Positions 26,770 through 63,128 of a DNA stretch of 64,000 nt are shown piece by piece (position 1 is the stretch's first letter; the number at the start of each line of letters is the position of its first letter). The stretch is from Yeosuana aromativorans. GTDB taxonomy: Bacteria > Bacteroidota > Bacteroidia > Flavobacteriales > Flavobacteriaceae. Under the pieces are notes generated by a model, which was not told the DNA's origin, did no database searches, and was given only the letters and a program-made list of their open reading frames with translations. A program made the translations under genes and the position numbers. Location: the NCBI RefSeq assembly GCF_014646655.1, contig NZ_BMNR01000002.1:647942-711941 (forward strand), given 5' to 3'.

Positions 26770-29499
26770 TTACATGGTTTTTTTAATAGCCGCTTGTGCT
26801 GACGCAATACGTGCTATTGGCACTCTATAAGGTGAACAACTCACATAGTTCATACCTGTATTGTAGCAGAATTCAACTGAACTTGGTTCGCCACCATGTT
26901 CGCCACAAATACCAACTTTTAAATTTGGTTTTGTGCTTCTGCCCTTTTCGGTTCCCATTTTAACCAATTGGCCTACGCCCTCTTGGTCAAGTACTTCAAA
27001 TGGATCTACTTTAAGAATACCTTTTTCTATATAGATTGGCAAAAATTTACCAGCATCATCTCTTGAATAACCAAAGGTCATTTGGGTTAAATCATTGGTT
27101 CCGAATGAGAAAAATTCCGCTTTCTCAGCAATTAAGTCTGCTGTTAATGCCGCTCTTGGTATTTCTATCATTGTTCCAACCAAATATTCAATGGTATCAC
27201 CGTACTCTTCAAAAACTTTTTCAGCAGTACTTCTAATGATACCTTCCTGCATTTCAAACTCTTGAATGGTTCCAATAAGTGGCACCATAATTTCTGGTTT
27301 GGCCACAATGCCTTTAGCCTTTAAATTTAAAGCTGCTTCAATTATGGCCCTTGCTTGCATTTCAGTGATTTCTGGATACGTATTTCCTAATCTACAGCCT
27401 CTATGTCCAAGCATTGGGTTAAATTCTTCCAATTCAGAAATTTTACTCTTAACAGCTTCCAAGGAAATATGCATGTCTTCAGCCAACTCTTTTTGTTGAA
27501 TTAATTGGTGAGGCACAAATTCATGCAATGGTGGATCTAACAATCTTACCGTAACAGGTAAGCCCTGCATAGCCTCAAAAATGCCTTCAAAGTCTTCACG
27601 TTGCATTGGTAATAATTGTTCCAAAGCATGTTTTCTACCTTTAACGGTGTCTGCTAAAATCATTTCACGCATGGCTTTAATACGATCTACTTCAAAGAAC
27701 ATATGCTCTGTTCTAGTAAGACCGATACCTTGAGCACCAAAAGTACGTGCTATTTTGGCATCTTTAGGCGTATCGGCATTGGTTCGTACTTGCATGGTAG
27801 CATATTTATCTGATAACTTCATGAGTTCAGCAAACTCTCCACTTAATTCTGGTTCGCTTGTGGCCACTTTACCTTCAATGATATTACCTGTAGAACCGTT
27901 TAATGAAATCCAATCACCTTCGTGATATTCTTTACCATCAACGGTTAAGGTTCTTGTTTTATAATTGATTTTCAAAGCACCGGCTCCAGATACACAACAT
28001 TTACCCATTCCTCTAGCTACTACAGCAGCATGTGATGTCATACCTCCACGAGCAGTTAAAATACCTCGGGCAACATTCATGCCTTCCAAATCTTCTGGAG
28101 AGGTTTCAATACGTGTTAGGATGGTGTATTTATATTTATCGGCTTCATCAGCAAAAAATACAATTTGTCCTGTTGCCGCACCAGGTGATGCTGGTAATCC
28201 TTGAGCAATCACATGGGCACGTTTTAATGCTTTTGGATCAAAAACCGGGTGCAATAACTCGTCCAATTTGTTTGGTTCAATTCTAAGAAGTGCTTGTTTT
28301 TCATCAATTAGACCTTGTTTTAGCATATCCATGGCTATTTTAACCATAGCTGCTCCAGTACGTTTCCCGTTTCTGGTTTGCAACATCCAAAGTTTTCCAT
28401 CTTGAATGGTAAACTCCATATCTTGCATGTCTTTATAATGGTCTTCCAGTTTTTGTTGGTAGTCATTCAACTCTTTATAAATACTTGGCATCAATTCTTC
28501 TAATGATGGGTAATTTTTTGCTCTGTCTTCTTCTTCTACTTTTGCTAATTCTGCCCAACGAAGTGATCCTAATTTTGTAATTTGTTGAGGCGTTCTGGTA
28601 CCTGCAACCACGTCTTCTCCTTGCGCATTGATTAAATATTCACCATTGAAAACATCTTCACCGGTTCCGGCATCTCTGGTAAAGCAAACACCTGTACCAG
28701 AATTATCGCCCATGTTTCCGTAAACCATAGCTTGAACGTTTACGGCTGTTCCCCAATCTGATGGATATCCGTGCATTTTTCTGTAGTAAATGGCCCTATC
28801 ACTGTTCCAACTATTAAATACCGCTATGACTGCACCCCAAAGTTGGTCCCAAGGGTTTGTTGGAAAATCATGACCTGTACGTTTTTTTACGGCTTCTTTA
28901 AAATCATAAACCAAATCCTTTAAATCCTGAATAGTAAATTCAGTATCCAATTGAATATTTCTTTTGTGCTTAAGCGCCTCCATGATTTCTTCAAACGGAT
29001 CAATATCATCTTTTGATTCTGGTTTCATTCCCAAAACCACATCACCGTACATTTGAATAAAACGACGGTAAGAATCCCATGCAAAACGTTCGTTATTGGT
29101 TCTTTTGGCCAGTCCTAAAACCACCTCATCATTCAAACCTAAATTCAAAACAGTATCCATCATACCTGGCATGGAAACACGTGCTCCTGATCGTACTGAT
29201 ACTAACAGCGGATTTTCAGCATCTCCAAACTTGGCATCCATAATGGTCTCAATATTGGCAACAGATTGTTCTACTTCTGGAAGGATCATATTTACTACAG
29301 CTTCTTGACCAAGAAGATTATATTCTGTACAGACTTCGGTTGTAATTGTGAAACCAGGCGGCACCGGTATACCAATTAAACTCATTTCAGCTAAGTTAGC
29401 TCCTTTGCCTCCTAAAAGGTTTTTCATCTTGCTATTTCCATCGGCCGTTTTATTGCCGAATTTATAGACTCTGGTTTTTACCGACTCTAAGGTTTCCAT
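26770..29499 (-). CDS. ppdK: Pyruvate, phosphate dikinase
   Basis: Interconverts pyruvate + ATP + phosphate and phosphoenolpyruvate + AMP + pyrophosphate; it can work in gluconeogenesis or, in reverse, give PPi-driven ATP yield at low energy. The 909-residue chain is of normal length. The ATP-grasp domain comes first (KMKNLLGGKGANLAEM, SVRSGARVSMPGMMDTVLNLG), then the phosphohistidine domain LTARGGMTSHAAVVARGMG with His490, then the PEP-binding barrel with GIGLTRTEHMFF, LGHRGCRLG, FSFGTNDLTQM and VGICGEHGGEPSS. The promoter has a perfect -7 element with an Fnr-like box 33 nt upstream, so I infer induction at low oxygen. Confidence 0.97.
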   Translation of the reverse strand: METLESVKTRVYKFGNKTADGNSKMKNLLGGKGANLAEMSLIGIPVPPGFTITTEVCTEYNLLGQEAVVNMILPEVEQSVANIETIMDAKFGDAENPLLVSVRSGARVSMPGMMDTVLNLGLNDEVVLGLAKRTNNERFAWDSYRRFIQMYGDVVLGMKPESKDDIDPFEEIMEALKHKRNIQLDTEFTIQDLKDLVYDFKEAVKKRTGHDFPTNPWDQLWGAVIAVFNSWNSDRAIYYRKMHGYPSDWGTAVNVQAMVYGNMGDNSGTGVCFTRDAGTGEDVFNGEYLINAQGEDVVAGTRTPQQITKLGSLRWAELAKVEEEDRAKNYPSLEELMPSIYKELNDYQQKLEDHYKDMQDMEFTIQDGKLWMLQTRNGKRTGAAMVKIAMDMLKQGLIDEKQALLRIEPNKLDELLHPVFDPKALKRAHVIAQGLPASPGAATGQIVFFADEADKYKYTILTRIETSPEDLEGMNVARGILTARGGMTSHAAVVARGMGKCCVSGAGALKINYKTRTLTVDGKEYHEGDWISLNGSTGNIIEGKVATSEPELSGEFAELMKLSDKYATMQVRTNADTPKDAKIARTFGAQGIGLTRTEHMFFEVDRIKAMREMILADTVKGRKHALEQLLPMQREDFEGIFEAMQGLPVTVRLLDPPLHEFVPHQLIQQKELAEDMHISLEAVKSKISELEEFNPMLGHRGCRLGNTYPEITEMQARAIIEAALNLKAKGIVAKPEIMVPLIGTIQEFEMQEGIIRSTAEKVFEEYGDTIEYLVGTMIEIPRAALTADLIAEKAEFFSFGTNDLTQMTFGYSRDDAGKFLPIYIEKGILKVDPFEVLDQEGVGQLVKMGTEKGRSTKPNLKVGICGEHGGEPSSVEFCYNTGMNYVSCSPYRVPIARIASAQAAIKKTM

Positions 29500-29540: not shown

Positions 29541-29548
29541 CAAAATTA
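29541..29548 (-). promoter_or_regulatory. -7 element of the ppdK promoter
   Basis: Minus-strand TAATTTTG, a perfect TAnnTTTG match, 41 nt ahead of the ATG. The usual -33 region is overlapped by the Fnr-like box at 29571-29584. Confidence 0.65.
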
Positions 29549-29570: not shown

Positions 29571-29584
29571 ATGACATAAATCAT
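29571..29584 (-). promoter_or_regulatory. Fnr-like box upstream of ppdK
   Basis: Plus-strand ATGAC-ATAA-ATCAT (ATGAT-TTAT-GTCAT on the coding strand). Its centre (29577.5) is exactly 33 nt from the centre of the ppdK -7 element, the same geometry as at the ccoI, ccoS and hemN promoters. Confidence 0.6.
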
Positions 29585-50738: not shown

Positions 50739-51416
50739 TTACTCAACACGCTTTAGGCCTTCCAAATCAATTATTTTGATTTGTTTGCCAATGGTAGTTA
50801 TCAAGTCTTCTTTCTTGAATTGTGACAAAACACGTATAGTTGATTCTGTAGCGGTTCCTATAATATTGGCGAAATCTTCCCTTGATAACAACACGCTCAA
50901 TGTACCATCTGACTTAGTGCCAAAATTATCGTTGATGTAAATCAAGGTTTCTGCCAAACGTTGACGGACCGATTTTTGAGCCATGTTTACTATAATGTCA
51001 TCGGCTTCTTTTAAATCCATGGCCATTTCTTTCAGTACATCAAACGTAAAAGCCGTATTTTTTTGAAGGTCGTTCATGATTTCTGATTTTGGAATAAAAC
51101 ACACCTCCATATCATTCAATGCTACGGCACTAAGGTTTACACTTTCGTCACTTACCAATGAGCGTTGCCCTATCAATTCACCCTTAACAACCAATTTAAT
51201 GATTTGATCTTTACCGTTTGAGCTCAACTTAGTCAGTTTACAGATACCTTCCCGAATGCAATAAATGCCTTTAAGCGAATCGCCTTCCTCAAAAATCACC
51301 TCACCTTTCTTGACAACTCTTGAGGTTTTACATTCAGAAATTCTGATCAACTCCTCTTGACTCAATGTCTTTAATGAGTTGAATTGTTTAATGATACATT
51401 GTTCACACTTACCCAT
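50739..51416 (-). CDS. Crp/Fnr-family transcription regulator (Fnr-like)
   Basis: A 225-residue regulator with a cyclic-nucleotide-type beta-roll (about 28-125) and a winged helix-turn-helix. The recognition helix reads LSREDFANIIGTATESTIRVLSQF; Glu191 and Arg195 match the Glu and Arg that contact the TGA core in E. coli Fnr, but the serine between them is replaced by isoleucine (Ile194). Cysteines are at 4, 7, 29, 53, 59 and 106. Cys4-x2-Cys7 and Cys106 recall the cluster ligands of Fnr, although the N-terminal spacing differs. Divergent from the cbb3 oxidase operon, with an Fnr-like box between. Proposed role: oxygen- or redox-responsive activator. Confidence 0.88.
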   Translation of the reverse strand: MGKCEQCIIKQFNSLKTLSQEELIRISECKTSRVVKKGEVIFEEGDSLKGIYCIREGICKLTKLSSNGKDQIIKLVVKGELIGQRSLVSDESVNLSAVALNDMEVCFIPKSEIMNDLQKNTAFTFDVLKEMAMDLKEADDIIVNMAQKSVRQRLAETLIYINDNFGTKSDGTLSVLLSREDFANIIGTATESTIRVLSQFKKEDLITTIGKQIKIIDLEGLKRVE

Positions 51417-51435
51417 AGTAACATATAAAGAGCAA

Positions 51436-51443
51436 CAAAATTA
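51436..51443 (-). promoter_or_regulatory. -7 element for the fnr-like gene
   Basis: Minus-strand TAATTTTG, a perfect TAnnTTTG match, 19 nt ahead of the start. Its centre is 44 nt from the Fnr-like box centre, that is 33 plus one helical turn. Confidence 0.6.
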
Positions 51444-51476
51444 CGTAAAACACAACAAATATCATATTTTATGAAT

Positions 51477-51490
51477 ATGACATATATCAT
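51477..51490 (+). promoter_or_regulatory. Fnr-like box between fnr-like gene and ccoI
   Basis: ATGAC-ATAT-ATCAT within the larger perfect repeat ATATGA-N6-TCATAT (51475-51492). Centre 51483.5, 33 nt from the centre of the ccoI -7 element. Confidence 0.65.
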
Positions 51491-51512
51491 ATTTCAAACA
51501 GTACATTTTTAA

Positions 51513-51520
51513 AATATTTG
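51513..51520 (+). promoter_or_regulatory. -7 element for ccoI
   Basis: AATATTTG, one mismatch to TAnnTTTG, 31 nt ahead of the ATG at 51552. Confidence 0.5.
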
Positions 51521-51551
51521 CATTTAGGTACAAAAAAGAGCAAATTAGTTT

Positions 51552-53948
51552 ATGGAACATCATTCATGTTTCCACTGTGGTTTAGACACAAAAGATTCTG
51601 AAATTATTTTTGATGGAAAATCATTTTGTTGCAATGGTTGTAAAACCGTTTACGAAATTTTTTCAGCAAATGATTTAACCTGTTATTACGACTTACAGCA
51701 AGCGCCCGGAGCAACACCAAAAGACATTGAGGGTAAATATAACTTTTTGGAAAACCCAAAAATCATTGAACAACTATTGGAGTTTAATGATGGAAATACC
51801 CAAATAGTTACCTTGTATATACCTCATATTCACTGTAGCTCCTGCATTTGGATTTTAGAAAATTTAAACAAAATCCATCCATCTGTAAGTGTTTCCATTG
51901 TGAATTTTGGTAAGAAGAATGTAAGGATAACCTATAATGCCGAATTGCTCTCCTTAAAAGATTTAGTCATCCTATTAAACAGTATTGGGTATGAACCTTT
52001 TATAAGTTTAGATGATTACAGCACTGGCAAAAAACATATTGACCGTTCATTGATTTACAAATTGGGAATTGCTGGATTTGCCTTTGGAAACGTGATGTTT
52101 TTATCGTTTCCAGAATATTTTGATCTGTTTACCAATAAAACTGGAATTAATGAATTTTGGTTAGAACAATACAAACCACTTTTTAGATGGTTGATGTTTG
52201 CCTTTTCTGTTCCAGTTGTATTCTATTCCTCTCAAGAATATTTTATTTCAGCATTTAAAGGACTTCGTTCAAAAATTTTAAATATTGATGTGCCCATTGC
52301 CTTAGGCATTTCAGTATTGTTTATTAGAAGTACGTTTGAAATCATTTTCAATCATGGCTCTGGTTTTTTTGATAGTTTGACAGGCTTGGTTTTCTTTTTG
52401 TTGCTAGGACGGTTCTTTCAGCAAAAAACATATACATTCTTATCGTTTGAACGCGATTACAAATCCTACTTCCCTATCGGAATCACTAAAATAATATCAG
52501 ACGGCACCGAAGAATCCATTCAGGTATATGATATTGAAAAAGGCGACCGGTTATTGATACGGAATGAGGAACTGATTCCTGTGGACTGTATTTTAATAAA
52601 AGGAAACGCGCGAATAGACTATAGTTTTGTGACAGGCGAATCAAAAACAGTCATAAAAAACTCAGGTGATAAATTATTTGCCGGTGGAAAACAGTTGGAC
52701 GGTAGCATAGAAGTGGATGTTTTAAAATCAGTTGAACAAAGCTACTTAACCCAGCTTTGGAGCAATGACGTATTTAAAACTGACAAAGAAAAAACCTTTA
52801 CATCCATTACCAATAATATCAGTCAATACTTTACCGTAGTAGTCTTATCCATTGCCTTTATCACAACTGCTTATTGGCTTTTGGTAGATTCCAGTAAAGC
52901 CTTGAATGTGTTTACATCCATACTGATAATTGCATGCCCATGCGCCTTTGCATTGTCAGCTCCGTTTACATTTGGAAATATCCTGCGCATTTTAGGCAAG
53001 AAAAAATTCTATTTAAAAAATGCCAGCGTTATTGAACAATTGGCAAAAATCAATACCATTATTTTTGACAAAACCGGTACCATAACAGCTAATAAAGATA
53101 CCCAAATAGAGTATGAAGGCGTTGCACTTTCTACTGAAGAAGAAGCTATATTAAAAAGCACTTTAAGAGGTTCCAATCATCCATTGAGTCGATCGTTATA
53201 CAATATTTTGGATGAGCATGATATTTTAACTTTGGATTCCTATGAAGAATATTTAGGCGAAGGTATTTCCGGTCAATACAAACAAAGCCACATAAAAGTA
53301 GGTTCTGCCCCTTTTGTGGGACGTGCTACTGATACCGCTACGTTAAACACTTCAGTTCACATCAGCAGCAATAACGCTTACAAAGGAAAATTTACTTTTT
53401 ATAATGCCTATAGAAAAGGATTGTCGCAACTATTCAACCAACTGAAAAAACACTATGATTTGGCGATTCTTTCGGGAGATAATGAAGGTGAGAAAGAAAA
53501 CTTGACCAAATTATTACCGGCTAAAACAAAACTGTTGTTCAACCAAAAACCAGAAGACAAACTGGAATACATCAAATACCATCAAAGTGAAGGTGCCCAT
53601 GTTTTAATGGTTGGCGATGGATTGAACGATGCAGGTGCTTTGGCACAAAGCAATGTTGGCATTGCCATTTCAGAAAATGTCAATGTGTTTTCTCCTGCTT
53701 GTGATGCCATTTTGGATGCCTCAAAATTTGACCAATTGTATCAATTTATAAAATTATCCAAGACATCTTTAAAAATCATTAAATGGAGTTTTGCGCTATC
53801 ATTTATATATAATGTTGTTGGCCTTTATTTTGCAGTAACCGGGCAATTAGCTCCAGTAGTAGCAGCTATCTTAATGCCTTTGAGCTCGATTAGCATAGTC
53901 AGTTTTACAACTCTTGCAACAAATGTGGCAGGTAGAAAATTAAAATAA
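51552..53948 (+). CDS. ccoI: CcoI-type copper P1B-ATPase
   Basis: A 798-residue copper-exporting ATPase that delivers copper across the inner membrane for the CuB site of cbb3 oxidase. An N-terminal cysteine-rich segment (CFHC, Cys6/Cys9; FCCNGC, Cys26/27/30) precedes a heavy-metal domain with HCSSC (Cys95, Cys98). Then follow membrane helices, TGES (361-364), the ion-path CPC motif (462-464 in IIACPCAFAL), the phosphorylated Asp506 in DKTGT, and GDGLNDAGAL. This domain set is that of CcoI/FixI rather than CopA. First gene of the oxidase cluster, with an Fnr-like box at its promoter. Confidence 0.95.
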   Translation: MEHHSCFHCGLDTKDSEIIFDGKSFCCNGCKTVYEIFSANDLTCYYDLQQAPGATPKDIEGKYNFLENPKIIEQLLEFNDGNTQIVTLYIPHIHCSSCIWILENLNKIHPSVSVSIVNFGKKNVRITYNAELLSLKDLVILLNSIGYEPFISLDDYSTGKKHIDRSLIYKLGIAGFAFGNVMFLSFPEYFDLFTNKTGINEFWLEQYKPLFRWLMFAFSVPVVFYSSQEYFISAFKGLRSKILNIDVPIALGISVLFIRSTFEIIFNHGSGFFDSLTGLVFFLLLGRFFQQKTYTFLSFERDYKSYFPIGITKIISDGTEESIQVYDIEKGDRLLIRNEELIPVDCILIKGNARIDYSFVTGESKTVIKNSGDKLFAGGKQLDGSIEVDVLKSVEQSYLTQLWSNDVFKTDKEKTFTSITNNISQYFTVVVLSIAFITTAYWLLVDSSKALNVFTSILIIACPCAFALSAPFTFGNILRILGKKKFYLKNASVIEQLAKINTIIFDKTGTITANKDTQIEYEGVALSTEEEAILKSTLRGSNHPLSRSLYNILDEHDILTLDSYEEYLGEGISGQYKQSHIKVGSAPFVGRATDTATLNTSVHISSNNAYKGKFTFYNAYRKGLSQLFNQLKKHYDLAILSGDNEGEKENLTKLLPAKTKLLFNQKPEDKLEYIKYHQSEGAHVLMVGDGLNDAGALAQSNVGIAISENVNVFSPACDAILDASKFDQLYQFIKLSKTSLKIIKWSFALSFIYNVVGLYFAVTGQLAPVVAAILMPLSSISIVSFTTLATNVAGRKLK

Positions 53949-53954
53949 AAAAAT

Positions 53955-53968
53955 ATGATTTATATCAT
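53955..53968 (+). promoter_or_regulatory. Fnr-like box upstream of ccoS
   Basis: Perfect palindrome ATGAT-TTAT-ATCAT directly after the ccoI stop. Centre 53961.5 is 33 nt from the -7-like TATTTTTA at 53991-53998. Confidence 0.65.
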
Positions 53969-53990
53969 TTTACATAAAAACACATGAACC

Positions 53991-53998
53991 TATTTTTA
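53991..53998 (+). promoter_or_regulatory. -7 element for ccoS-ccoNO
   Basis: TATTTTTA, one mismatch to TAnnTTTG (A for the last G), 20 nt ahead of the ccoS ATG. Confidence 0.45.
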
Positions 53999-54018
53999 AC
54001 CCCTAATTTAAAACAAAC

Positions 54019-54204
54019 ATGAGTGTCATTTATATTCTGCTTACAATAAGCATTATTGTAGCTGTCATCTTTTTTATCGCGTTTATTTTGGCTGTAAAAA
54101 ATGGACAATATGATGACAGTTATACCCCTTCGGTTCGTATGCTTTTTGAAGACGAGCTAGTCAAAGAAAAACCAAATAAATCAATTCAAACCAAACAAGA
54201 TTAA
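54019..54204 (+). CDS. ccoS: cbb3 oxidase assembly protein CcoS
   Basis: A 61-residue single-pass membrane protein needed for maturation of the cbb3 oxidase cofactors. The N-terminal helix [31 protein letters not shown] is the whole of the family signature, with the typical NGQYDD ending that follows the membrane segment. A short, charged tail follows. Small size, position between ccoI and ccoNO, and an Fnr-like box in front all agree with this. Confidence 0.92.
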
Positions 54205-54215
54205 CTATTACTACT

Positions 54216-56402
54216 ATGGAAGTACAACAGTTTCAATACGATAATAAAATCGTAAAAAATTTCATCTATGCCACCATGCTTTGGGGCGTTGTGGGAATGT
54301 TGGTGGGCTTATTACTGGCCTTTTTATTTTTGTTTCCTACCTTAACAGAAGGCATATCATGGCTTAGTTTTGGTCGTTTAAGACCTTTACACACCAATGC
54401 CGTTATTTTTGCTTTTGTGGGAAATGCCATTTTTGCCGGTGTTTACTACTCGTCACAACGATTGCTTAAGGCGAGAATGTTTAGTGACACATTAAGTAAA
54501 ATCAATTTCTGGGGGTGGCAACTTATCATTGTTGGTGCCGCAATAACATTACCACTTGGTTTCACAACCTCTAAAGAATACGCCGAATTGGAATGGCCAT
54601 TTGATATCGCCATTGCTTTGGTTTGGGTGGTTTTTGGCTGGAACCTCATTGGAACCATTTTAAAAAGAAGACAACGCCATTTGTATGTAGCCATTTGGTT
54701 TTACATCGCCACATTTGTGACGGTTGCAGTACTTCATATTTTTAATAGTTTGGAGTTACCCGTTAGTGCCTTAAAAAGTTACTCGGTGTATGCAGGTGTG
54801 CAAGATGCCTTGGTACAATGGTGGTATGGTCACAATGCCGTAGCATTCTTTTTAACCACACCGTTCTTGGGACTGATGTATTATTTTGTGCCTAAAGCAG
54901 CCAACAGGCCTGTATATTCTTATAGATTATCTATTGTACACTTTTGGTCATTAATATTTATATATATATGGGCAGGACCTCATCACCTGTTGTATACTGC
55001 TCTTCCAGAATGGGCTCAAAACCTCGGTGTTGCATTCTCTGTCATGTTATTAATGCCGTCTTGGGGTGGTATGATAAACGGATTATTGACATTGCGTGGT
55101 GCCTGGGATAAAGTTAGAACTGACCCTGTTTTAAAATTCATGGTCGTGGCCATTACAGGTTATGGTATGGCAACTTTTGAAGGCCCAACGCTATCATTGA
55201 AAAACGTCAATGCCATTGCCCATTTTACAGACTGGATTATTGCCCACGTTCACGTTGGTGCTTTAGCTTGGAACGGATTCTTGACCTTTGGAATGATTTA
55301 TTGGTTGGTACCAAGATTATTTAAAACAAAACTATTTTCAACCGGATTGGCCAATCTGCACTTTTGGATAGGCACTTTAGGTATCATTATGTATGCGTTG
55401 CCTATGTATGTGGCTGGATTTACCCAAGCCAGTATGTGGAAACAATTCAATCCTGACGGTACATTAACCTATGGTAATTTCTTGGAAACGGTTACAGAAA
55501 TCATGCCTATGTACTGGATGCGTGCCATCGGTGGCACTTTATATATAACTGGTATGCTTATTTTGGTTTACAACATTATTGCAACCATTAAAGCTGGAAG
55601 TACTGTAACCGACGAATTAGCCGAAGCACCTGCATTGGAACGCGTTTCCAAAAAACGTTTGGCAGGCGAAGGATGGCATTCATGGTTAGAGCGCAAACCT
55701 GTTAAATTAACCATATTGGCCACTATCGCCATTTTAATTGGTGGAATTGTACAAATCATTCCAACAATCTTGGTTAAATCAAATATTCCAACCATAGCCA
55801 GTGTTAAACCATACACACCATTGGAACTTGAAGGACGTGATATTTATATCCGTGAGGGTTGTGTGGGTTGCCATTCACAAATGATTCGTCCCTTTAGAAG
55901 TGAAGTGGAACGCTATGGAGAATACTCCAAAGCGGGTGAATATGTCTATGACCATCCATTCCTTTGGGGTAGTAAACGTACCGGGCCGGATTTACATCGT
56001 GAAGGTGGTAAGTATTCTGACAACTGGCACTTAAACCATTTGTACGATCCGAGAAGCACCTCCAGTGGTTCCATTATGCCTAGTTATCCATGGCTTATCA
56101 AAAACAAACTTGACAAGTCTCAAACAGAGGCAAAAATGAAAACCATGGTCAGTCTTGGTGTGCCTTATACCGATGAGGATATTGCCAATGCCCAACAACA
56201 AATGGATGAACAAGGCACTCAAATAGAACAAAGTCTTTACAACGACCCAGATTTTGTTCAAAGCTATGAAGCCGACAAGAAAAATGCTGCCGAAAGTGGT
56301 AGTGAGTTTGTTGCAATGAAAGATCGGGAAATAGTCGCTATAATAGCCTATTTGCAACGATTGGGAACTGATATTAAAGTTAAAGATGTAACTAATAACT
56401 AA
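54216..56402 (+). CDS. ccoNO: cbb3 cytochrome oxidase, fused subunits I and II (CcoN-CcoO)
   Basis: A 728-residue fusion of the catalytic haem-copper subunit and the monohaem c subunit. The CcoN part has HTNAVIF (His59), YGHNAVAFF (His206), GPHHLLY (His256, His257) and the haem ligands in [10 protein letters not shown] (His344, His346). About 12 helices cover residues 1-460. A linker with one more helix (about 498-520) leads to the CcoO part with the haem c site Cys549-x2-Cys552-His553 in [15 protein letters not shown]. It reduces oxygen with high affinity. CcoN and CcoO are separate in proteobacteria; the fusion is a known Bacteroidota trait. Confidence 0.96.
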
Positions 56403-56420
56403 TTCAAAAAGAAAGAAATC

Positions 56421-56612
56421 ATGTTGAAATTTGCTAAAAACTACATGGAAACCATTTCAGGCATTGAAATTTATCCAATTATATCTTTACTTATATTCTT
56501 CACGTTTTTTGTGATCCTTTTTTGGTGGGTGTTTACAGCCAAAAAAGACTATATCAAAACGGTGAGCCAACTTCCTTTAGACAATAACAACCAAAACGAT
56601 ATTATATCATGA
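56421..56612 (+). CDS. ccoQ: CcoQ-like small subunit of cbb3 oxidase
   Basis: A 63-residue single-pass protein. The helix IYPIISLLIFFTFFVILFWWVFTAKKDY with an aromatic FWWVF centre and the basic KKDYIK after it is typical of CcoQ/FixQ, which stabilises the assembled oxidase. Its stop overlaps the ccoP start by 4 bases (ATGA), so translation is coupled. Confidence 0.88.
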   Translation: MLKFAKNYMETISGIEIYPIISLLIFFTFFVILFWWVFTAKKDYIKTVSQLPLDNNNQNDIIS

Positions 56613-57565
56613 GAAATCTTATTCCATCCTATATTAGAGTTCCTTTAGTGTTCTTTATCATTTTCGGACTCGTAGAATACTTTGTTGATTCAGGCGAGGA
56701 ACCAGCGTTTATAAAATACCCAATAGTCCTATTATTTTTATTGTTGGTACTATTGGTTCTTATTGCCATTGAAGCCATTATTGGCGCTCTGGAAAACGTG
56801 ATGTTCCAAAGTTTAACCGAAGAAGGCAAGGCACGCTACATGGCATCAAAAAACAAAGTGCCACAGTTCAACTGGATTAAAAACCTCTATAAAAAATTAG
56901 TAGGCACTAAACCTATTGAAGAAGAACATGAACTTATTTTAGACCACAATTATGATGGCATTAAAGAATTGGACAATTCCTTACCGCCTTGGTGGCTATA
57001 TTCTTTTTACGCATCCATTGTGTTTGCAGCCGTTTATTTGATAAACTTCCATATTTTTGGAAATAACAGTCAATATGATGAATTGGCCGAAGAGTATAAA
57101 AAAGCTGAAATCAGTATAGCAGAATACAAAAAGAATGCGAAGGATTTGGTTGATATGAACACCGTAACACTCTTAACAGATGCTGCCGATTTAAATAGTG
57201 GTAAGGCTATTTTTATGCAAAACTGTATTCCTTGCCACATGGCTGATGGTGGTGGTGGTATTGGGCCAAACTTAACCGATAACCATTGGATTTTAGGTGG
57301 CGGTATTAAAAACGTTTTCCATACCATTACTGAAGGTGGCCGTGACGGAAAAGGCATGATAGCTTGGAAACAAAATTTCAAACCATCAGAAATTCAACAG
57401 GTTGCCAGTTATGTATTGTCATTACAAGGCACTACACCTGCCAACCCAAAAGCACCTCAAGGTGATATTATTTGGCCAGAAGAAAATGCACAACCTACTG
57501 CTGAAGCAACTACTGATTCTACCACTGTTGTAGTAGATTCAATAGCTCCAGCACCAACAAATTAA
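56609..57565 (+). CDS. ccoP: cbb3 oxidase c-type subunit CcoP, single haem
   Basis: A 318-residue membrane-anchored cytochrome c that passes electrons to CcoNO. It has three helices (about 10-26, 38-60 and 130-150), the family N-terminal domain with DHNYDGIKELDNSLPPWW (112-129) and one haem-binding site, Cys206-x2-Cys209-His210 (NCIPCHMADGGGGIGPNL). Proteobacterial CcoP carries two such sites; I find only one here. The methionine ligand is probably in GMIAWKQNF. A proline- and threonine-rich tail ends the chain. It overlaps ccoQ by 4 bases. Confidence 0.94.
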   Translation: MRNLIPSYIRVPLVFFIIFGLVEYFVDSGEEPAFIKYPIVLLFLLLVLLVLIAIEAIIGALENVMFQSLTEEGKARYMASKNKVPQFNWIKNLYKKLVGTKPIEEEHELILDHNYDGIKELDNSLPPWWLYSFYASIVFAAVYLINFHIFGNNSQYDELAEEYKKAEISIAEYKKNAKDLVDMNTVTLLTDAADLNSGKAIFMQNCIPCHMADGGGGIGPNLTDNHWILGGGIKNVFHTITEGGRDGKGMIAWKQNFKPSEIQQVASYVLSLQGTTPANPKAPQGDIIWPEENAQPTAEATTDSTTVVVDSIAPAPTN

Positions 57566-57578
57566 AATAAATTTATGG

Positions 57579-57610
57579 GCCAAGCATAAAAATTGTATTT
57601 TATACTTGGC
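57579..57610 (+). other. Long intercistronic hairpin between ccoP and ccoG
   Basis: A 13-bp stem (GCCAAGCATAAAA and its complement with one G-U pair) over a 6-nt loop. It lacks a T run afterwards on the plus strand, so it may be an RNA-stability or attenuation element rather than a terminator. Confidence 0.6.
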
Positions 57611-57635
57611 TCTTTCATCTACTTAGCAAACAAAA

Positions 57636-59060
57636 ATGGAGACCCCAGAAAACGAAAAATTCAGAGATTCAATAGGCACGATTACTGAAGAAGGTAAACG
57701 CGCTTGGGTATTTCCAAAAAAACCTCACGGCAAATTTTATGAGTACAGAAAACTGGTCAGTTATGTGCTTTTGATATTTTTATTTGCAGCGCCTTTTGTC
57801 AAAATCAATGGCAATCAGTTTTTGATGTTCAATATTTTAGAACGTCGTTTTAATATTTTTGGTTTTCCGTTTTGGCCTCAGGATTTCTACTTATTTGTAT
57901 TGTCCATGATTACAGGGGTCATTTTCGTCACGCTTTTTACGGTGGCTTTTGGACGCATCTTTTGTGGATGGATTTGCCCACAGACTATCTTCATGGAAAT
58001 GGTATTTAGACGTATTGAATATTGGATTGATGGCGATCGTGGCAAACAAATAAAATTAAAAAAACAGCCCTGGAATGCTGAAAAAATAAGAAAACGTTTA
58101 TTGAAATGGTTTGTGTTTTTGGTCATTTCCTTTGCTATTGCAAACGTGTTTCTAGCCTATTTAATTGGAGGCGACAAGGTTCTTCAATATATTGTTGAAG
58201 GCCCTTCAAAACACTTAAGCACCTTATTTCCTTTGTTGATTTTTACAGCTGTTTTCTATTTTGTGTTTGCTTGGTTTAGAGAACAAGTCTGTATTATTGC
58301 TTGCCCTTACGGACGACTGCAAGGCGTTTTATTGGACAATAAATCCATTGTTGTGGCTTATGACCACAAACGTGGCGAAGCAGAAAACGGAAGAAAAAAA
58401 TGGCGCAATAACGAAGATAGACAAGCATTGGGCTATGGTGATTGTATTGATTGTTTTCAGTGTGTGCATGTGTGCCCAACCGGTATTGACATCCGGAACG
58501 GAACGCAATTGGAATGCGTCAATTGTACGGCCTGTATTGATGAATGTGATGACATTATGGAAAAAGTAGGCTTTGAAAAAGGACTGATTCGATATGCCAG
58601 TGAAGCTGAAATAGAAAAGAAAGAGCCTTTTAAACTAACGGCACGAATGAAAGGGTATATTGCCGTGCTTGTCATTTTAATTGGAGTGCTCACTGGGTTG
58701 TTGTTTTTAAGAAATGATGTAGAAGCCACCGTGTTGCGTTTACCCGGACAATTGTATGAGCATAAAGCCAATAACATGATCAGCAATGTGTTTACCTATA
58801 AACTGGTCAATAAAACCACAAAGGAAATTGATGATGTTGTGCTGAAGCTCAGAAAATATAAAGGCACTATAAAATTAGTGTCCACAAAAGACAGTTTTAC
58901 AGTACCAGCTCAAGGCATTGCTGAAGGTACCTTGTTTATAGAAATCAATAAAAATGAACTGAAAGGTGACAAAAACAAATTAATGATTGAGGTTTACAGC
59001 CACGACAAACTGATAGAAACCACAACCGTTAACTTTTTAGGGCCAAGAAGTTATAACTAA
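57636..59060 (+). CDS. ccoG: CcoG (cbb3 oxidase accessory iron-sulfur protein)
   Basis: A 474-residue membrane protein of the CcoG/RdxA/FixG family, which reduces copper for delivery to the oxidase. Several helices are mixed with iron-sulfur motifs: FGRIFCGWICPQTIFMEMVFRRIEYWIDGDRGKQ, ACPYGRLQGVLLDN, and the ferredoxin pair GDCIDCFQCVHVCPTGIDIRNGTQLECVNCTACIDECDDIMEKVG. The C-terminal about 110 residues form the periplasmic Ig-like FixG domain (NMISNVFTYKLVNKT...). It is 70 bases beyond ccoP, with a long hairpin between. Confidence 0.95.
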   Translation: METPENEKFRDSIGTITEEGKRAWVFPKKPHGKFYEYRKLVSYVLLIFLFAAPFVKINGNQFLMFNILERRFNIFGFPFWPQDFYLFVLSMITGVIFVTLFTVAFGRIFCGWICPQTIFMEMVFRRIEYWIDGDRGKQIKLKKQPWNAEKIRKRLLKWFVFLVISFAIANVFLAYLIGGDKVLQYIVEGPSKHLSTLFPLLIFTAVFYFVFAWFREQVCIIACPYGRLQGVLLDNKSIVVAYDHKRGEAENGRKKWRNNEDRQALGYGDCIDCFQCVHVCPTGIDIRNGTQLECVNCTACIDECDDIMEKVGFEKGLIRYASEAEIEKKEPFKLTARMKGYIAVLVILIGVLTGLLFLRNDVEATVLRLPGQLYEHKANNMISNVFTYKLVNKTTKEIDDVVLKLRKYKGTIKLVSTKDSFTVPAQGIAEGTLFIEINKNELKGDKNKLMIEVYSHDKLIETTTVNFLGPRSYN

Positions 59061-59073
59061 AAAAATATACACC

Positions 59074-59520
59074 ATGAAATTTAATTGGGGAACCGGAATT
59101 GTTTTAGCATTTATAGGCTTTATAAGCTTTATCATGTACTTTGTTCTAACCATGAATTTTGATAAGAAATTCAATCATGATTTAGTGACCGAGGATTATT
59201 ATAAAGCTGAATTGGCCTATCAAAAAGACATTGACAAACAAAACAATGCCAAAACGCTCAAGGAAAACATCACCTACACAAAAACAAGTGACGGGTTGCT
59301 TATTGAGTTCCCACAAGATTTTGACGCCAAAAAAATTACCGGAAAAGTGTTCCTATACAGACCATCTAACAAACACTTGGATTTTGAAACTCCAATTTCA
59401 ATATCTGAACCTTATTTGCTCGTACCTGACAAACGTTTATTAGATGGTCGTTGGAACCTTACCGTTGATTGGCAATATAATGGAACACCTTATTTATACA
59501 AAGCCTCTATTACTTACTAA
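59074..59520 (+). CDS. ccoH: FixH/CcoH assembly protein
   Basis: A 148-residue protein with one N-terminal helix (WGTGIVLAFIGFISFIMYFVLTMNF) and a periplasmic beta domain. The sequence DLVTEDYYKAELAYQKDIDKQNNA after the helix is the family hallmark. The domain ends with GRWNLTVDWQYNGTPYLYKASITY. It is needed for cbb3 oxidase assembly. It starts 13 bases after ccoG, and the next gene starts 1 base after its stop. Confidence 0.93.
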   Translation: MKFNWGTGIVLAFIGFISFIMYFVLTMNFDKKFNHDLVTEDYYKAELAYQKDIDKQNNAKTLKENITYTKTSDGLLIEFPQDFDAKKITGKVFLYRPSNKHLDFETPISISEPYLLVPDKRLLDGRWNLTVDWQYNGTPYLYKASITY

Positions 59521-59521
59521 C

Positions 59522-60223
59522 ATGTTAATTTCAGCATTTGTATTGGGTTTACTGGGCAGCTTTCACTGTGTAGGCATGTGCGGCCCCATTGCATTTGTGC
59601 TGCCCGTAGATCGTTCCAATACTTATAAAAAAGTGTTACAGATTGGCATGTACCATTTTGGTAGGCTGCTGTCTTACAGCATTATTGGATTGGTTTTTGG
59701 ACTCATCGGCAAAGGCCTGTACCTATTTGGTTTTCAGCAACAACTTTCCATTATTATTGGTGTTATTATGATTGTTGCCGCCATTATTCCTTACAAAACA
59801 TTTAATAAATACAATCTATCCAAGCCCATTTATAGAATTATTTCAAAAGTTAAATCAGGTTTAGGAACGGCTTTAAAGAAAAAGACGCTGGATACCTTTT
59901 TAACCATTGGTTTTTTAAACGGCTTTTTACCATGCGGCTTGGTTTACATGGCTGTTTTTGGCGCCATTGCTTGGGGCAATGCTTTTAAAGGAAGCTTGTA
60001 TATGCTATTTTTTGGACTTGGAACCATCCCTTTGATGACAACTGCTATTTATTTTGGCCATTTTTTAAAAGGTACATTGCGCCAAAAAATACAGAAAGCC
60101 ATTCCTGTTTTTGTGATATTGATTGGTGCTCTTTTCATATTGCGTGGTCTTGGCTTGGGCATTCCTTACATATCACCTGCCCCAATTGTTGAAATGGCCG
60201 GTAGCTCTATGAATTGTCACTAA
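59522..60223 (+). CDS. TauE/SafE-like membrane protein of the cco cluster
   Basis: A 233-residue protein with six helices. I start it at MLISAFVLGLLGS (59522), directly after the ccoH stop; the longer frame from 59444 lies inside ccoH. The cysteine motifs GSFHCVGMCGPIAFVLP (12-28) and NGFLPCGLVYMAV (about 137-149) define the SafE-like (DsbD-related) branch often found at the end of cbb3 operons (CcoS/CcoH neighbours). It may carry copper or thiol-reducing power across the membrane. Last gene of the operon. Confidence 0.85.
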   Translation: MLISAFVLGLLGSFHCVGMCGPIAFVLPVDRSNTYKKVLQIGMYHFGRLLSYSIIGLVFGLIGKGLYLFGFQQQLSIIIGVIMIVAAIIPYKTFNKYNLSKPIYRIISKVKSGLGTALKKKTLDTFLTIGFLNGFLPCGLVYMAVFGAIAWGNAFKGSLYMLFFGLGTIPLMTTAIYFGHFLKGTLRQKIQKAIPVFVILIGALFILRGLGLGIPYISPAPIVEMAGSSMNCH

Positions 60224-60333
60224 ACCAACATTTTTTGCTTATTCCAAGCGGTACAAATTCAAACCCAAATTAATTTATATTTAATTTTAAAAACCTTACA
60301 TTTAATGAGATATAAAAATCAAATTAAATATAT

Positions 60334-60747
60334 ATGAAAAGACATGCAGAAGCCGTTTGGACTGGTACTGGAAAAGACGGAAAAGGACATTTAACAACTC
60401 AGAGCAAGGTTTTGAGCGAAACTCAATATTCATTCTCATCTCGTTTTGAAAACGGTATTGGAACAAATCCTGAGGAATTAGTGGCAGCGGCCCACGCAGG
60501 ATGTTTTACTATGAAACTGGCTTTTAACTTACAAGCCAAAAACCACACTCCGGAATCATTAAATACATCTTGCACCATTACGCTTGAAGATGGTGCCATA
60601 ACCAATTCGCATTTGGTGCTCAAAGCAAAAATTAGCGGAATTTCCAATGGGGAATTTGAGGAATTGGTTAAAGATGCCGAACAAAACTGTCCAATTTCAA
60701 AATTATTGAAAACAAAAATCACTGTCGATTTTACTTTGAACGGTTAA
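60334..60747 (+). CDS. OsmC-family peroxiredoxin
   Basis: A 137-residue OsmC-type protein that reduces organic hydroperoxides using two cysteines. The motif pair is AAAHAGCFTMKLAF (Cys50-range) and DAEQNCPISKLLKT, the typical spacing in this family. The start MKRHAEAVWTGTGKDGKGHLTTQS is normal for OsmC. Upstream about 110 bases are AT-rich and hold no Fnr-like box. It is convergent with uspA. Confidence 0.92.
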   Translation: MKRHAEAVWTGTGKDGKGHLTTQSKVLSETQYSFSSRFENGIGTNPEELVAAAHAGCFTMKLAFNLQAKNHTPESLNTSCTITLEDGAITNSHLVLKAKISGISNGEFEELVKDAEQNCPISKLLKTKITVDFTLNG

Positions 60748-60774
60748 AAAGCCAAAACATAACTTTATATAAAG

Positions 60775-60812
60775 AAAAAAAGGAACAGCTTTTAATAACT
60801 GTTCCTTTTTTA
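60775..60812. terminator. Bidirectional terminator between osmC and uspA
   Basis: AAAAAAGGAACAG pairs with CTGTTCCTTTTTT over a 10-nt loop. Confidence 0.88.
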
Positions 60813-60841
60813 AAATAGAGATTAGTCACTCAACCTATAAA

Positions 60842-61669
60842 TTATACTTTAAAAGTCATTACTGGTAGGCTGGCATGATTGGCAATATCTTCACCAATGC
60901 TTCCTTCCAGAAAATGCGCTATACCTTTTCTGCCATGTGTGGGAATGGCTATGATGTCTGCTCCTATTTTTTTTGAAAAATTCAATATGCCGCTTTCTGG
61001 AGTATAATCTGAAATGCAATGGAAATTTTGCATTTGTTTTAAATGTCCATCTGCTGTCATAAAAAAATCCTTGGCACTTTGCTCAATCTCATCACTACTT
61101 CTAAATCTATCATTTGGTAAATTGACATAGACGATTGTGATTTTTGCATCATTGAACATCTTAAGCACATTGATATAGGCCTTGATGGTTTCTTTACTAA
61201 AATCACAGGCAAAAACAACATTTTTAAAATCTACACTGGCTAATTCATTTTTAACTACCAATACCGGGATATTAGAACTTCTAACAACACGCTCCGTATT
61301 GGAGCCAATTACAAGTTCCTTAACACCGGTCACTCCATGGGACCCCATAACAACAAGATCTGCATGGTGTTTTAGGGCTACCTCATTAACTTCAGTAAAC
61401 ACCTTAAACTGCTTTATAATTGGTGTGATTTTAATGTGTTTTAAATAATCCTTTTTTAGGAATAATTTCAATTCTTGTTCTGCCAGTTTATGAAAGAACA
61501 AGGCTTTTTCTTTTTGGTCACCGCCTGTAGCTGTCAACATAATGTCCGACATTTCCAGCATATTCAAAACAATGATTTCAGTCTTGTTTTTTCGCGCCAA
61601 AGCGGCAGCGGCTTTTAACGCATGTTCTGAATGCTCTGAAAAATCTATGGGAACAATAATCTTTTCCAT
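60842..61669 (-). CDS. Tandem universal stress protein (UspA family)
   Basis: A 275-residue protein with two Usp domains. The first (1-143) has KIIVPIDFSEHSEHALKAAAALA and the nucleotide-binding MGSHGVTGVKELVIGSNTERVVRSSNIPVLVV (G-x2-G-x9-G-S/T). The second (about 150-275) ends IPTHGRKGIAHFLEGSIGEDIANHASLPVMTFKV, a looser match. Proteins of this type bind ATP and help cells survive stress, starvation or low oxygen. It follows hemN by 33 bases on the same strand and so probably shares the hemN promoter with its Fnr-like box. Confidence 0.92.
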   Translation of the reverse strand: MEKIIVPIDFSEHSEHALKAAAALARKNKTEIIVLNMLEMSDIMLTATGGDQKEKALFFHKLAEQELKLFLKKDYLKHIKITPIIKQFKVFTEVNEVALKHHADLVVMGSHGVTGVKELVIGSNTERVVRSSNIPVLVVKNELASVDFKNVVFACDFSKETIKAYINVLKMFNDAKITIVYVNLPNDRFRSSDEIEQSAKDFFMTADGHLKQMQNFHCISDYTPESGILNFSKKIGADIIAIPTHGRKGIAHFLEGSIGEDIANHASLPVMTFKV

Positions 61670-61702
61670 GACAACTTTTCTTTAATTTTCTTAAATGACG
61701 CT

Positions 61703-63067
61703 TTAAACGGTCATGGAAAACAATTGTACATCTGGGGTTTTTCGTTGCAATAATAAATCAAACGCCATACATATATTTCTCACAAAAGGTTGCCCTTTAG
61801 GTAAAACCTTTATGGATGTTGATTGGATTTCCAACAACTCATCCCGTTCCATTTCCTTAAGCTTCATCAACACCTCAGGAATTTCATCAAAACGCATGAG
61901 CTCCGCCTCCCATGAGGTTTCAAAACTGCACATCAAATTAAGAATGTGACGCCTTATGATTAAATCTTCCTCATTCAATATATGACCTCTGTAAACCGGT
62001 AATCTGTTTTGTTCCAATAGGTCATAATAGTCTTCAATCACTTTTACATTTTGGCCAAACCCATACCAGCTATCACCAATGGATGATACACCCAAACCTA
62101 TCATAGTTTGTGTTTTGGAGGCCGTATAGCCCATAAAATTTCTGTGCAAACTTTTGTTTTGCATGGACTTATAAAGAGAATCCGATGGCAATGCAAAATG
62201 GTCCATGCCAATTTCATGATAGCCTACCTCAGTCAACAGCTGTTTACCCAATTCATATTGTTGCCGTTTCAGTTCTGCTTTGGGTAAGTCAGAATCCTTG
62301 AACCCACGTTGACCGTTTCCTTTAATCCAAGGCACATGCGCATAACTGTAAAACGCCAATCTATCAGGGCATAACTCCTTAGTTTTTAAAATGGTTTGCT
62401 CTACGTGTTCCATGGTTTGAAACGGCAATCCAAAAATAATATCATGACCAACCGATGTATAACCAATTTCACGAGCTGTTTCTGTGGCTCGCTTAACATT
62501 TTCAAATGGTTGGATTCTGTGAATGGCTTTTTGAACCGTAATATTATAATCCTGAACACCGTAACTAACCCGCCTAAATCCAACATCGTACAGTGCTTGC
62601 AAATGAGCTTTTGTAGTATTGTTTGGGTGACCTTCAAAACTAAATTCATGTCCTTTTGCTACAACAGCATCTTTTAAAATACCGTTTATCAAGCGTTTTA
62701 AGTTTTCTGGCTTAAAAAAGGTAGGCGTTCCGCCACCAAGGTGCATCTCCTTTATGATTGGTTTTTCATCAAACAACTCTAAATACAAACCCCATTCCTT
62801 TAAAACGGCATCTATATAAGGTGATTCTACATCATGTTGTTTGGTAATACGTTTGTTACAGCCGCAAAACGTACATAAACTTTCGCAAAAGGGCATGTGA
62901 ATATACAAACTGATACCTTCTGAAGCATTGCTTTCATTAAATGATGTTTTTACTGATGACGTCCAGTTTTCCAAAGAAAATGTATCGTTATCCCAATACG
63001 GAACTGTTGGATAGCTTGTATAGCGCGGTCCCGCAATATTATACTTATTAATTAGTGACTTGTTCAT
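61703..63067 (-). CDS. hemN: Oxygen-independent coproporphyrinogen III oxidase
   Basis: A 454-residue radical SAM enzyme that decarboxylates coproporphyrinogen III to protoporphyrinogen IX without oxygen, in haem synthesis. The cluster motif is Cys61-x3-Cys65-x2-Cys68 with Cys70 (FCESLCTFCGCNKRI). The N-terminus NKYNIAGPRYTSYPTVPYW and GGGTPTFF, SFEGHPNNTT, RVSYGVQDYN and IFGLPFQT segments are diagnostic of true HemN, as opposed to the HemW-like paralogues that lack the NIPGPRYTSYPT stretch. First gene of a two-gene operon with uspA. A box identical to those of the cco genes precedes it. Confidence 0.95.
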   Translation of the reverse strand: MNKSLINKYNIAGPRYTSYPTVPYWDNDTFSLENWTSSVKTSFNESNASEGISLYIHMPFCESLCTFCGCNKRITKQHDVESPYIDAVLKEWGLYLELFDEKPIIKEMHLGGGTPTFFKPENLKRLINGILKDAVVAKGHEFSFEGHPNNTTKAHLQALYDVGFRRVSYGVQDYNITVQKAIHRIQPFENVKRATETAREIGYTSVGHDIIFGLPFQTMEHVEQTILKTKELCPDRLAFYSYAHVPWIKGNGQRGFKDSDLPKAELKRQQYELGKQLLTEVGYHEIGMDHFALPSDSLYKSMQNKSLHRNFMGYTASKTQTMIGLGVSSIGDSWYGFGQNVKVIEDYYDLLEQNRLPVYRGHILNEEDLIIRRHILNLMCSFETSWEAELMRFDEIPEVLMKLKEMERDELLEIQSTSIKVLPKGQPFVRNICMAFDLLLQRKTPDVQLFSMTV

Positions 63068-63084
63068 ACCTGTAATCTTGGTTC

Positions 63085-63092
63085 AAAATTAA
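63085..63092 (-). promoter_or_regulatory. -7 element of the hemN promoter
   Basis: Minus-strand TAATTTTG, a perfect TAnnTTTG match, 17 nt ahead of the start. Confidence 0.6.
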
Positions 63093-63114
63093 TTTAAAAC
63101 GTAATTGCAAAATA

Positions 63115-63128
63115 TGATAATAGTCATA
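63115..63128 (-). promoter_or_regulatory. Fnr-like box upstream of hemN
   Basis: On the hemN strand ATGAC-TATT-ATCAT. Centre 63121.5, exactly 33 nt from the centre of the hemN -7 element. Confidence 0.65.

Follow-up and report, generated by a model that had tools for sequence, protein, structure and literature searches.

A conserved 33-nt palindrome-to-promoter spacing in Flavobacteriaceae points to a class II low-oxygen regulon that two Crp/Fnr-type regulators probably share

Introduction

Which protein reads a set of palindromes that all stand at one exact distance from a promoter element, and which genes would it control? The question is raised by a 64,000-nt stretch of the Yeosuana aromativorans genome (contig NZ_BMNR01000002.1, positions 647,942 to 711,941; hereafter the window), where copies of the palindrome ATGAY-N4-RTCAT precede genes of cbb3 oxidase, haem synthesis and pyruvate phosphate dikinase. 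An initial annotation of the window had assigned these palindromes to an Fnr-like protein. Class II control by Fnr is known; the variant described here is set apart by its operator, by a core promoter of the Bacteroidota type and by the pair of regulators. To our knowledge, transcription activation at the unusual Bacteroidota promoter has been little described. No earlier description of flavobacterial Fnr control through ATGAY sites was found in the literature searched, which mostly excluded subscription journals. In this study, we describe hundreds of candidate promoters at which the predicted activator position is identical to the nucleotide, and we judge it very probable, from sequence comparison, that they make up a low-oxygen regulon under class II control, whose single operator is recognized by regulators of two types. 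The pattern offers a simple way to search this family, which abounds in the sea, for low-oxygen genes, and the proposed operator and regulators would fill a gap and would open the question of what senses oxygen in flavobacteria to direct tests.

Results

Four palindromes in the window share one spacing

The window contains four exact ATGAY-N4-RTCAT palindromes. The first (ATGATTTATGTCAT on the minus strand, 29571-29584, located by pattern scan) lies 5′ of ppdK; the second (51477-51490, plus strand) lies between fnr, the gene of an Fnr-like regulator, and ccoI; the third (53955-53968, plus strand) lies 5′ of ccoS-ccoNO; and the fourth (63114-63127, minus strand) lies 5′ of hemN. All four had been recognized in the initial annotation, which gave the hemN site coordinates that were one base too high. 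The invariant spacing that it reported was reproduced at every site: a TAnnTTTG-type −7 box faces ppdK, ccoI, ccoS-NO and hemN, respectively, exactly 33 nt from the palindrome, centre to centre. The boxes of ppdK (TAATTTTG, 29541-29548, minus strand) and hemN (TAATTTTG, 63084-63091, minus strand) are perfect, and those of ccoI (AATATTTG, 51513-51520, plus strand) and ccoS-NO (TATTTTTA, 53991-53998, plus strand) carry one mismatch each. Among the genes served, ppdK (26770-29499, minus strand) encodes pyruvate phosphate dikinase (TIGR01828, 1331 bits), hemN (61703-63067, minus strand) encodes oxygen-independent coproporphyrinogen III oxidase (TIGR00538, 422 bits), and ccoS (FixS; 54019-54204, plus strand; PF03597) is followed by a ccoNO fusion for cbb3 oxidase subunits I/II (54216-56402, plus strand; Pfam and NCBIfam). 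By Pfam and NCBIfam, the remaining gene (51552-53948, plus strand) encodes a P-type ATPase with an N-terminal metal-binding domain; its putative name ccoI, for a function in cbb3 oxidase assembly, rests on gene context.

A geometry of this kind had been held to be hard to obtain by chance, and our controls agreed. Dinucleotide shuffles of the window (36% G+C) yielded a mean of 0.25 palindromes and a maximum of 2, and four were never reached. Boxes with at most one mismatch occur at 1.0% of window positions on the plus strand and 1.25% on the minus strand; by our own arithmetic, the chance that four of four palindromes share one spacing is of the order of 1e-5.

The spacing recurs throughout the host genome

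The same pattern was scanned for in the whole host genome (3.76 Mb, 34 contigs), as the initial annotation had proposed; the genome contains 60 palindromes compared with 10 for a reversed control pattern. With perfect boxes and 31 allowed spacings, 9 of 17 palindrome-box pairs lay at exactly 33 nt, one further pair being 1 nt shorter and one 1 nt longer. When boxes with at most one mismatch were counted for the 52 of 60 palindromes that were read with their flanks, a box stood at 33 nt from 26 of 36 intergenic palindromes; at 42 other spacings the count averaged 1.1 and never exceeded 3. Such a box was found for none of the 16 palindromes inside open reading frames. TAnnTTTA was frequent among the one-mismatch boxes. 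Five palindromes (L170:2121, L024:1531, L006:1501, L015:1501 and L019:1501) had a box at 33 nt on both sides, as for divergent promoters, where one operator may serve both genes, e.g. hydrogenase small subunit and HypA, or oxidoreductase and ferredoxin.

The genes that follow a box at 33 nt in the host were named by Pfam and NCBIfam matches, and several have no Pfam match. They include cbb3 oxidase and its assembly genes, HemN, HemA and pyruvate phosphate dikinase; pyruvate/2-oxoacid:ferredoxin oxidoreductase and a divergent ferredoxin; NiFe hydrogenase small subunit and HypA, back to back; molybdopterin oxidoreductase, an Fe-S (iron-sulphur) protein and multihaem cytochromes; a cytochrome c back to back with an Rrf2 regulator; and thioredoxin, DnaJ, CBS and Usp proteins. 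At two further genes the box was off by 1 nt, at 34 (perfect) for MoeA and at 32 for ResB. The annotated genes fit respiration at low oxygen and the synthesis of haem, and the single regulon inferred in the initial annotation is supported; its binder need not be Fnr alone. In Flavobacterium psychrophilum under oxygen limitation, cbb3 oxidase is described as strongly up-regulated and haem enzymes as up-regulated (PMC9723704). A term count of the main text of that paper returned no word beginning with fnr or crp.

The sites and their spacing are conserved

Palindrome-box pairs were counted over the 31 allowed spacings in 120 genomes of the family, which represent 119 genera. Of 739 pairs, 504 were at 33 nt, and the remaining 235 were scattered across the other 30 spacings; the reversed control pattern gave no pair at 33 nt in these genomes. 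A draw of 247 genomes from the whole phylum showed how far the arrangement extends. A site at 33 nt was present in 26 of 27 genomes of the family, in all 3 genomes of f2, the other family of the order, in 11 of 31 from the rest of the class (one or two sites each), in 4 of 5 from one family of another class (f22), and in 2 of 181 of all others. The reversed control matched once each in 3 of the 247 genomes (G181, G266 and G311).

Conservation in related Flavobacteriaceae, on which the initial annotation had made its reading depend, was found at all four promoters. Eighty related loci were compared, many of them from metagenome-assembled genomes; Yeosuana, Flavivirga and Algibacter are among the genera of the others. 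At all promoters, no more than one mismatch was tolerated in the palindrome and one in the TANNTTTR box. The 33-nt spacing was kept at 76 of 79 ccoI promoters, where the first T of the box was mostly missing among the rows listed, and upstream of ccoS-NO in 76 of 77 relatives. For hemN, 30 of 45 strong matches were read; a site at 33 nt was present in 27 of these 30 orthologues, 8 of them with CTGAY in place of ATGAY, and the three that missed it (G048, G049 and G020) all come from genomes without an Fnr orthologue. All 10 close ppdK orthologues, the host's own included, have the site; two distant copies lack it, both in G058, a genome with neither of the regulators described below. Across the 80 loci, ATGAY palindromes gave 78 perfect and 84 one-mismatch boxes at 33 nt, compared with none, perfect or one-mismatch, for ten other half-site patterns that have few palindromes (0-32). 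Two further peaks of one-mismatch boxes, at 19 nt (54) and 56 nt (57), are presumably repeats of one orthologous promoter.

The palindrome would be centred at −41.5

A start-site map of F. psychrophilum, as presented in PMC9723704, puts the TAnnTTTG box at −12 to −5 (centre −8.5), and the palindrome centre would therefore be at −41.5. The value "near −41" of the initial annotation is thereby refined, indirectly, to the −41.5 of class II operators, the box position being borrowed from that map. As at E. coli class II FNR and CRP promoters, the site is a dimeric palindrome with an N4 core. In the numbering of the sigma-70 −10 element, T−12 lies 29.5 nt from −41.5, and here too the dyad is 29.5 nt from the T of the box TA. 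The core promoter, in contrast, is of the Bacteroidota type (TAnnTTTG), and the half-site is ATGAY rather than the TTGAT of E. coli, a difference that the initial annotation had already pointed out.

We propose that the palindromes are operators of a low-oxygen regulon under class II activation. A dimeric Crp/Fnr-type protein would bind ATGAY-N4-RTCAT centred at −41.5 and would contact RNA polymerase carrying the housekeeping sigma factor at TAnnTTTG (often TAnnTTTA), at −12 to −5.

The idea that the spacing is special to ATGAY was rejected: among the first 150 TTGAY pairs listed, 31 lay at 33 nt compared with a mean of 4.0 at other spacings, a weaker form of the ATGAY peak. Because TTGAY palindromes show the same peak, the geometry looks general for Crp/Fnr-type activators in Bacteroidota. 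A second palindrome type with this geometry was also observed in the host genome: TTGATGTATGTCAA lies 33 nt from a perfect box, immediately after a Crp-type gene (helix E-N-L-S-R) and ahead of the gene that follows (C5:273983-274026; L149, minus strand).

An Fnr-like regulator is encoded beside ccoI

Seven host proteins matched HTH_Crp_2, six of them above the cut-off. An E-[ST]-x-I-R recognition helix is present in three of the seven, namely the Fnr-like protein of the window (50739-51416, minus strand; helix E-S-T-I-R; domain search and alignment) and two fusions of receiver, cNMP and HTH_Crp domains; in the other four the recognition helix differs. We propose that these two regulator types would read one operator through their E-x-x-I-R helix.

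The Fnr-like protein has the cNMP_binding plus HTH_Crp_2 architecture of canonical FNR. C4, C7, C53 and C106, together with an E-x-x-I-R helix, are found in every one of the 101 homologues read (the window protein, 80 relatives and 20 hand-picked diverse family members). Upon alignment to Aliivibrio fischeri FNR, C4, C7 and C106 match FNR cysteines, the third N-terminal FNR cysteine corresponds to N13, and C53 faces an alanine; the A. fischeri chain has a further cysteine three residues before the position aligned with C53. Three of the four canonical ligands (three N-terminal cysteines and one central) are therefore aligned, and E-x-x-I-R and ATGAY stand in place of the E-x-x-S-R helix and the TTGAT half-site. 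Because the ligand set and the helix with its half-site both depart from the canonical FNR, the protein is not filed as an FNR member, and it probably works like one. It resembles the FNR of A. fischeri and E. coli in its cNMP fold joined to HTH_Crp_2, its three aligned cysteines and its location beside cbb3 genes, and differs from them in that the recognition serine before the arginine is isoleucine. C53 is a candidate replacement cluster ligand; its strand assignment was taken from the strand list of an AlphaFold model (mean pLDDT 77.6, pTM 0.62). The protein would probably carry an oxygen-labile Fe-S cluster on C4, C7, C53 and C106.

Helix and cysteines were also read in a hand-picked set of 32 genomes that reached beyond the family. 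In f22, all four cysteines and E-x-x-I-R are present in the four orthologues that could be read, and the fifth is interrupted. The two genomes of f9 keep the four cysteines and have E-T-A-[ST]-R as the helix, and ATGAY sites are absent from them. Taken with f2, where the four cysteines have all disappeared together (Discussion), these small samples fit, without proving, a pattern in which the helix isoleucine would go with ATGAY and the four cysteines would form one unit. A simple rule that serine gives TTGA was discarded, as the f9 genomes have no TTGAY pairs either. In its treatment of recognition helices, a 2005 study described residues that covary with Crp/Fnr motifs, at positions 180 and 181 and not at the one changed here (PMC1274295).

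A receiver-Crp regulator follows a FixL-like kinase

The second regulator type fuses Response_reg, cNMP_binding and HTH_Crp_2 domains in one protein, with two copies in the host. E-[ST]-x-I-R was present in 22 of 22 receiver-Crp proteins (the two of the host and 20 hand-picked from 61 genomes). The first host copy comes after a PAS histidine kinase. In comparison with solved structures, the PAS domain of this kinase matches FixL best (1d06, E 2e-15), and its HD.Y histidine and GIxR are aligned. The aligned histidine is kept in 21 of 22 kinases, within a motif that is generic in PAS domains. Haem in the PAS kinase is only possible, because the aligned histidine is widespread among PAS relatives. 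The response regulator would presumably be phosphorylated by the adjacent FixL-like kinase, for which oxygen or redox would be the signal.

The arrangement recalls the rhizobial FixL-FixJ-FixK system in its FixL-like PAS kinase and in its presumed output to cbb3 and haem genes through a Crp-type domain. It differs in that receiver and Crp-type domains are fused, and the cassette has no separate FixJ and FixK; a separate response regulator with a LuxR-type helix-turn-helix, as in FixJ, is absent from it. A Usp gene comes next in the first cassette; it has a palindrome of its own, with a perfect box 33 nt away. Two cassettes of PAS kinase, receiver-Crp and Usp genes were seen in the host (L171:3703-6940 and L174:1125-5220), and the kinase of the second is without the FixL-like histidine.

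Sites follow the presence of either regulator

The 120 family genomes were sorted by regulator content, Fnr being called present at a best E ≤1e-45 and receiver-Crp at E ≤1e-70, thresholds that were set after the score gap had been seen. A site was present in 34 of 34 genomes with both regulators (median 7), in 39 of 44 with Fnr only (median 3), in 26 of 27 with receiver-Crp only (median 3), and in 2 of 15 with neither (median 0). Taken together, 99 of 105 genomes with either regulator had a site compared with 2 of 15 with neither (Fisher p 3e-11, uncorrected for phylogeny). Among the "neither" genomes of at least 3 Mb, 1 of 6 had a site.

These counts bear on the alternative that only one of the two types, Fnr alone or receiver-Crp alone, acts on the sites and that the other recognizes something else. 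The hemN promoter leans this way, its site being present in 22 of 22 Fnr-positive genomes compared with 5 of 7 receiver-Crp-only genomes, which favours Fnr there; likewise, sites near receiver-Crp genes and their Usp neighbours could be receiver-Crp's own. Against it, genomes with a single regulator of either type have sites nearly always, those with both have the most, and the contact residues are identical in the two types. We therefore regard a single acting regulator as unlikely.

Discussion

The operators, their spacing and conservation, the genes that they precede, their co-occurrence with the regulators and the helix residues in common are what the comparison establishes; DNA binding, activation, the Fe-S cluster and the sensing steps are inferred. 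Two further explanations must be set beside activation by a pair of regulators. The sites could be operators of a repressor that is active in air and blocks the promoter until low oxygen relieves it. A site at −41.5 overlaps the upstream promoter element, where repressors can sit, and in relatives 52 of the 67 palindromes found before fnr are centred 42-45 nt ahead of its start codon, a position that would be consistent with fnr repressing its own transcription (the corresponding distance between palindrome centre and fnr start is 67 nt in the window, 50739-51490 region). Yet at Crp/Fnr promoters repressor sites usually scatter; one exact position at many promoters is a hallmark of contact between activator and polymerase, and five host palindromes serve boxes at 33 nt on both sides. 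Repression is thus quite improbable. Chance coincidence in an AT-rich genome, where A/T-rich boxes are common, has negligible probability, already refuted by the shuffles, the reversed pattern, the other spacings, the palindromes inside genes, the ten half-site patterns and the conservation.

Several observations nevertheless weigh against a low-oxygen regulon with two regulators. In f2 (L273, L274 and L275; three genomes of one genus), the orthologue is without all four cysteines, has the helix E-S-A-I-R and is accompanied by ATGAY sites at 33 nt; the operator alone therefore does not imply an Fe-S sensor, and this orthologue may have kept DNA recognition and lost the presumed cluster. An E-x-x-I-R homologue is encoded in G136, G158, G162, G280 and G333, all outside the family, yet these genomes lack a perfect ATGAY site at 33 nt; within the family, the Fnr-positive genomes G018, G023, G085, G107 and G112 and the receiver-Crp genome G083 have no perfect site. 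The co-occurrence test is uncorrected for phylogeny, and 9 of the 15 genomes with neither regulator are smaller than 3 Mb. The gene fnr itself has a box at 33 nt in only 3 of 80 relatives; its own control must therefore differ, and class II activation of fnr by its own site was dropped as a candidate. Targets such as FadL, YceI, TonB and a laminin-G protein have no obvious low-oxygen fit. Finally, the aligned histidine of the kinase is common in PAS domains without haem. As a separate observation, G083, G023 and G085 (3-4.2 Mb) each have an E-x-x-I-R regulator and no perfect site at 33 nt, the count covering exact ATGAY sites and no variants such as CTGAY.

A more specific scheme, to which we give somewhat less than an even chance, would hold that in Flavobacteriaceae and in lineages as far as f22, one operator at −41.5 is read by two sensors of different chemistry. 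One would be an Fnr whose fourth ligand has been relocated to C53, on a strand of the cNMP-fold domain, and whose serine-to-isoleucine helix change switches TTGA to ATGA; the other would be a FixJ-FixK fusion in one protein, driven by a FixL-like kinase.

Other Crp/Fnr-family regulators of the phylum have been predicted by comparative genomics. As described in the sources cited, HcpR2 of Bacteroidetes has the motif GTAAC-N4-GTTAC and the target hcp (PMC1274295), MalR was proposed to act in the response to carbon, and a 2021 paper assigned the Flavobacteriales homologue to carbon sensing (PMC8510549). The motif and regulon reported here match neither as they are described there.

Around the window sites, the intergenic region of the hemN palindrome is shared with sodC, a Cu/Zn superoxide dismutase gene (PF00080; 63200-63781) that is read in the opposite direction from the other side of the palindrome. 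Boxes with one mismatch occur on the sodC strand 14 and 42 nt from the palindrome, and none at 33 nt. Behind ccoNO, the genes for CcoP (FixP), CcoG (FixG), FixH and a DsbD_2-type protein (56609-60223, plus strand; Pfam) are probably in one operon with ccoS-ccoNO.

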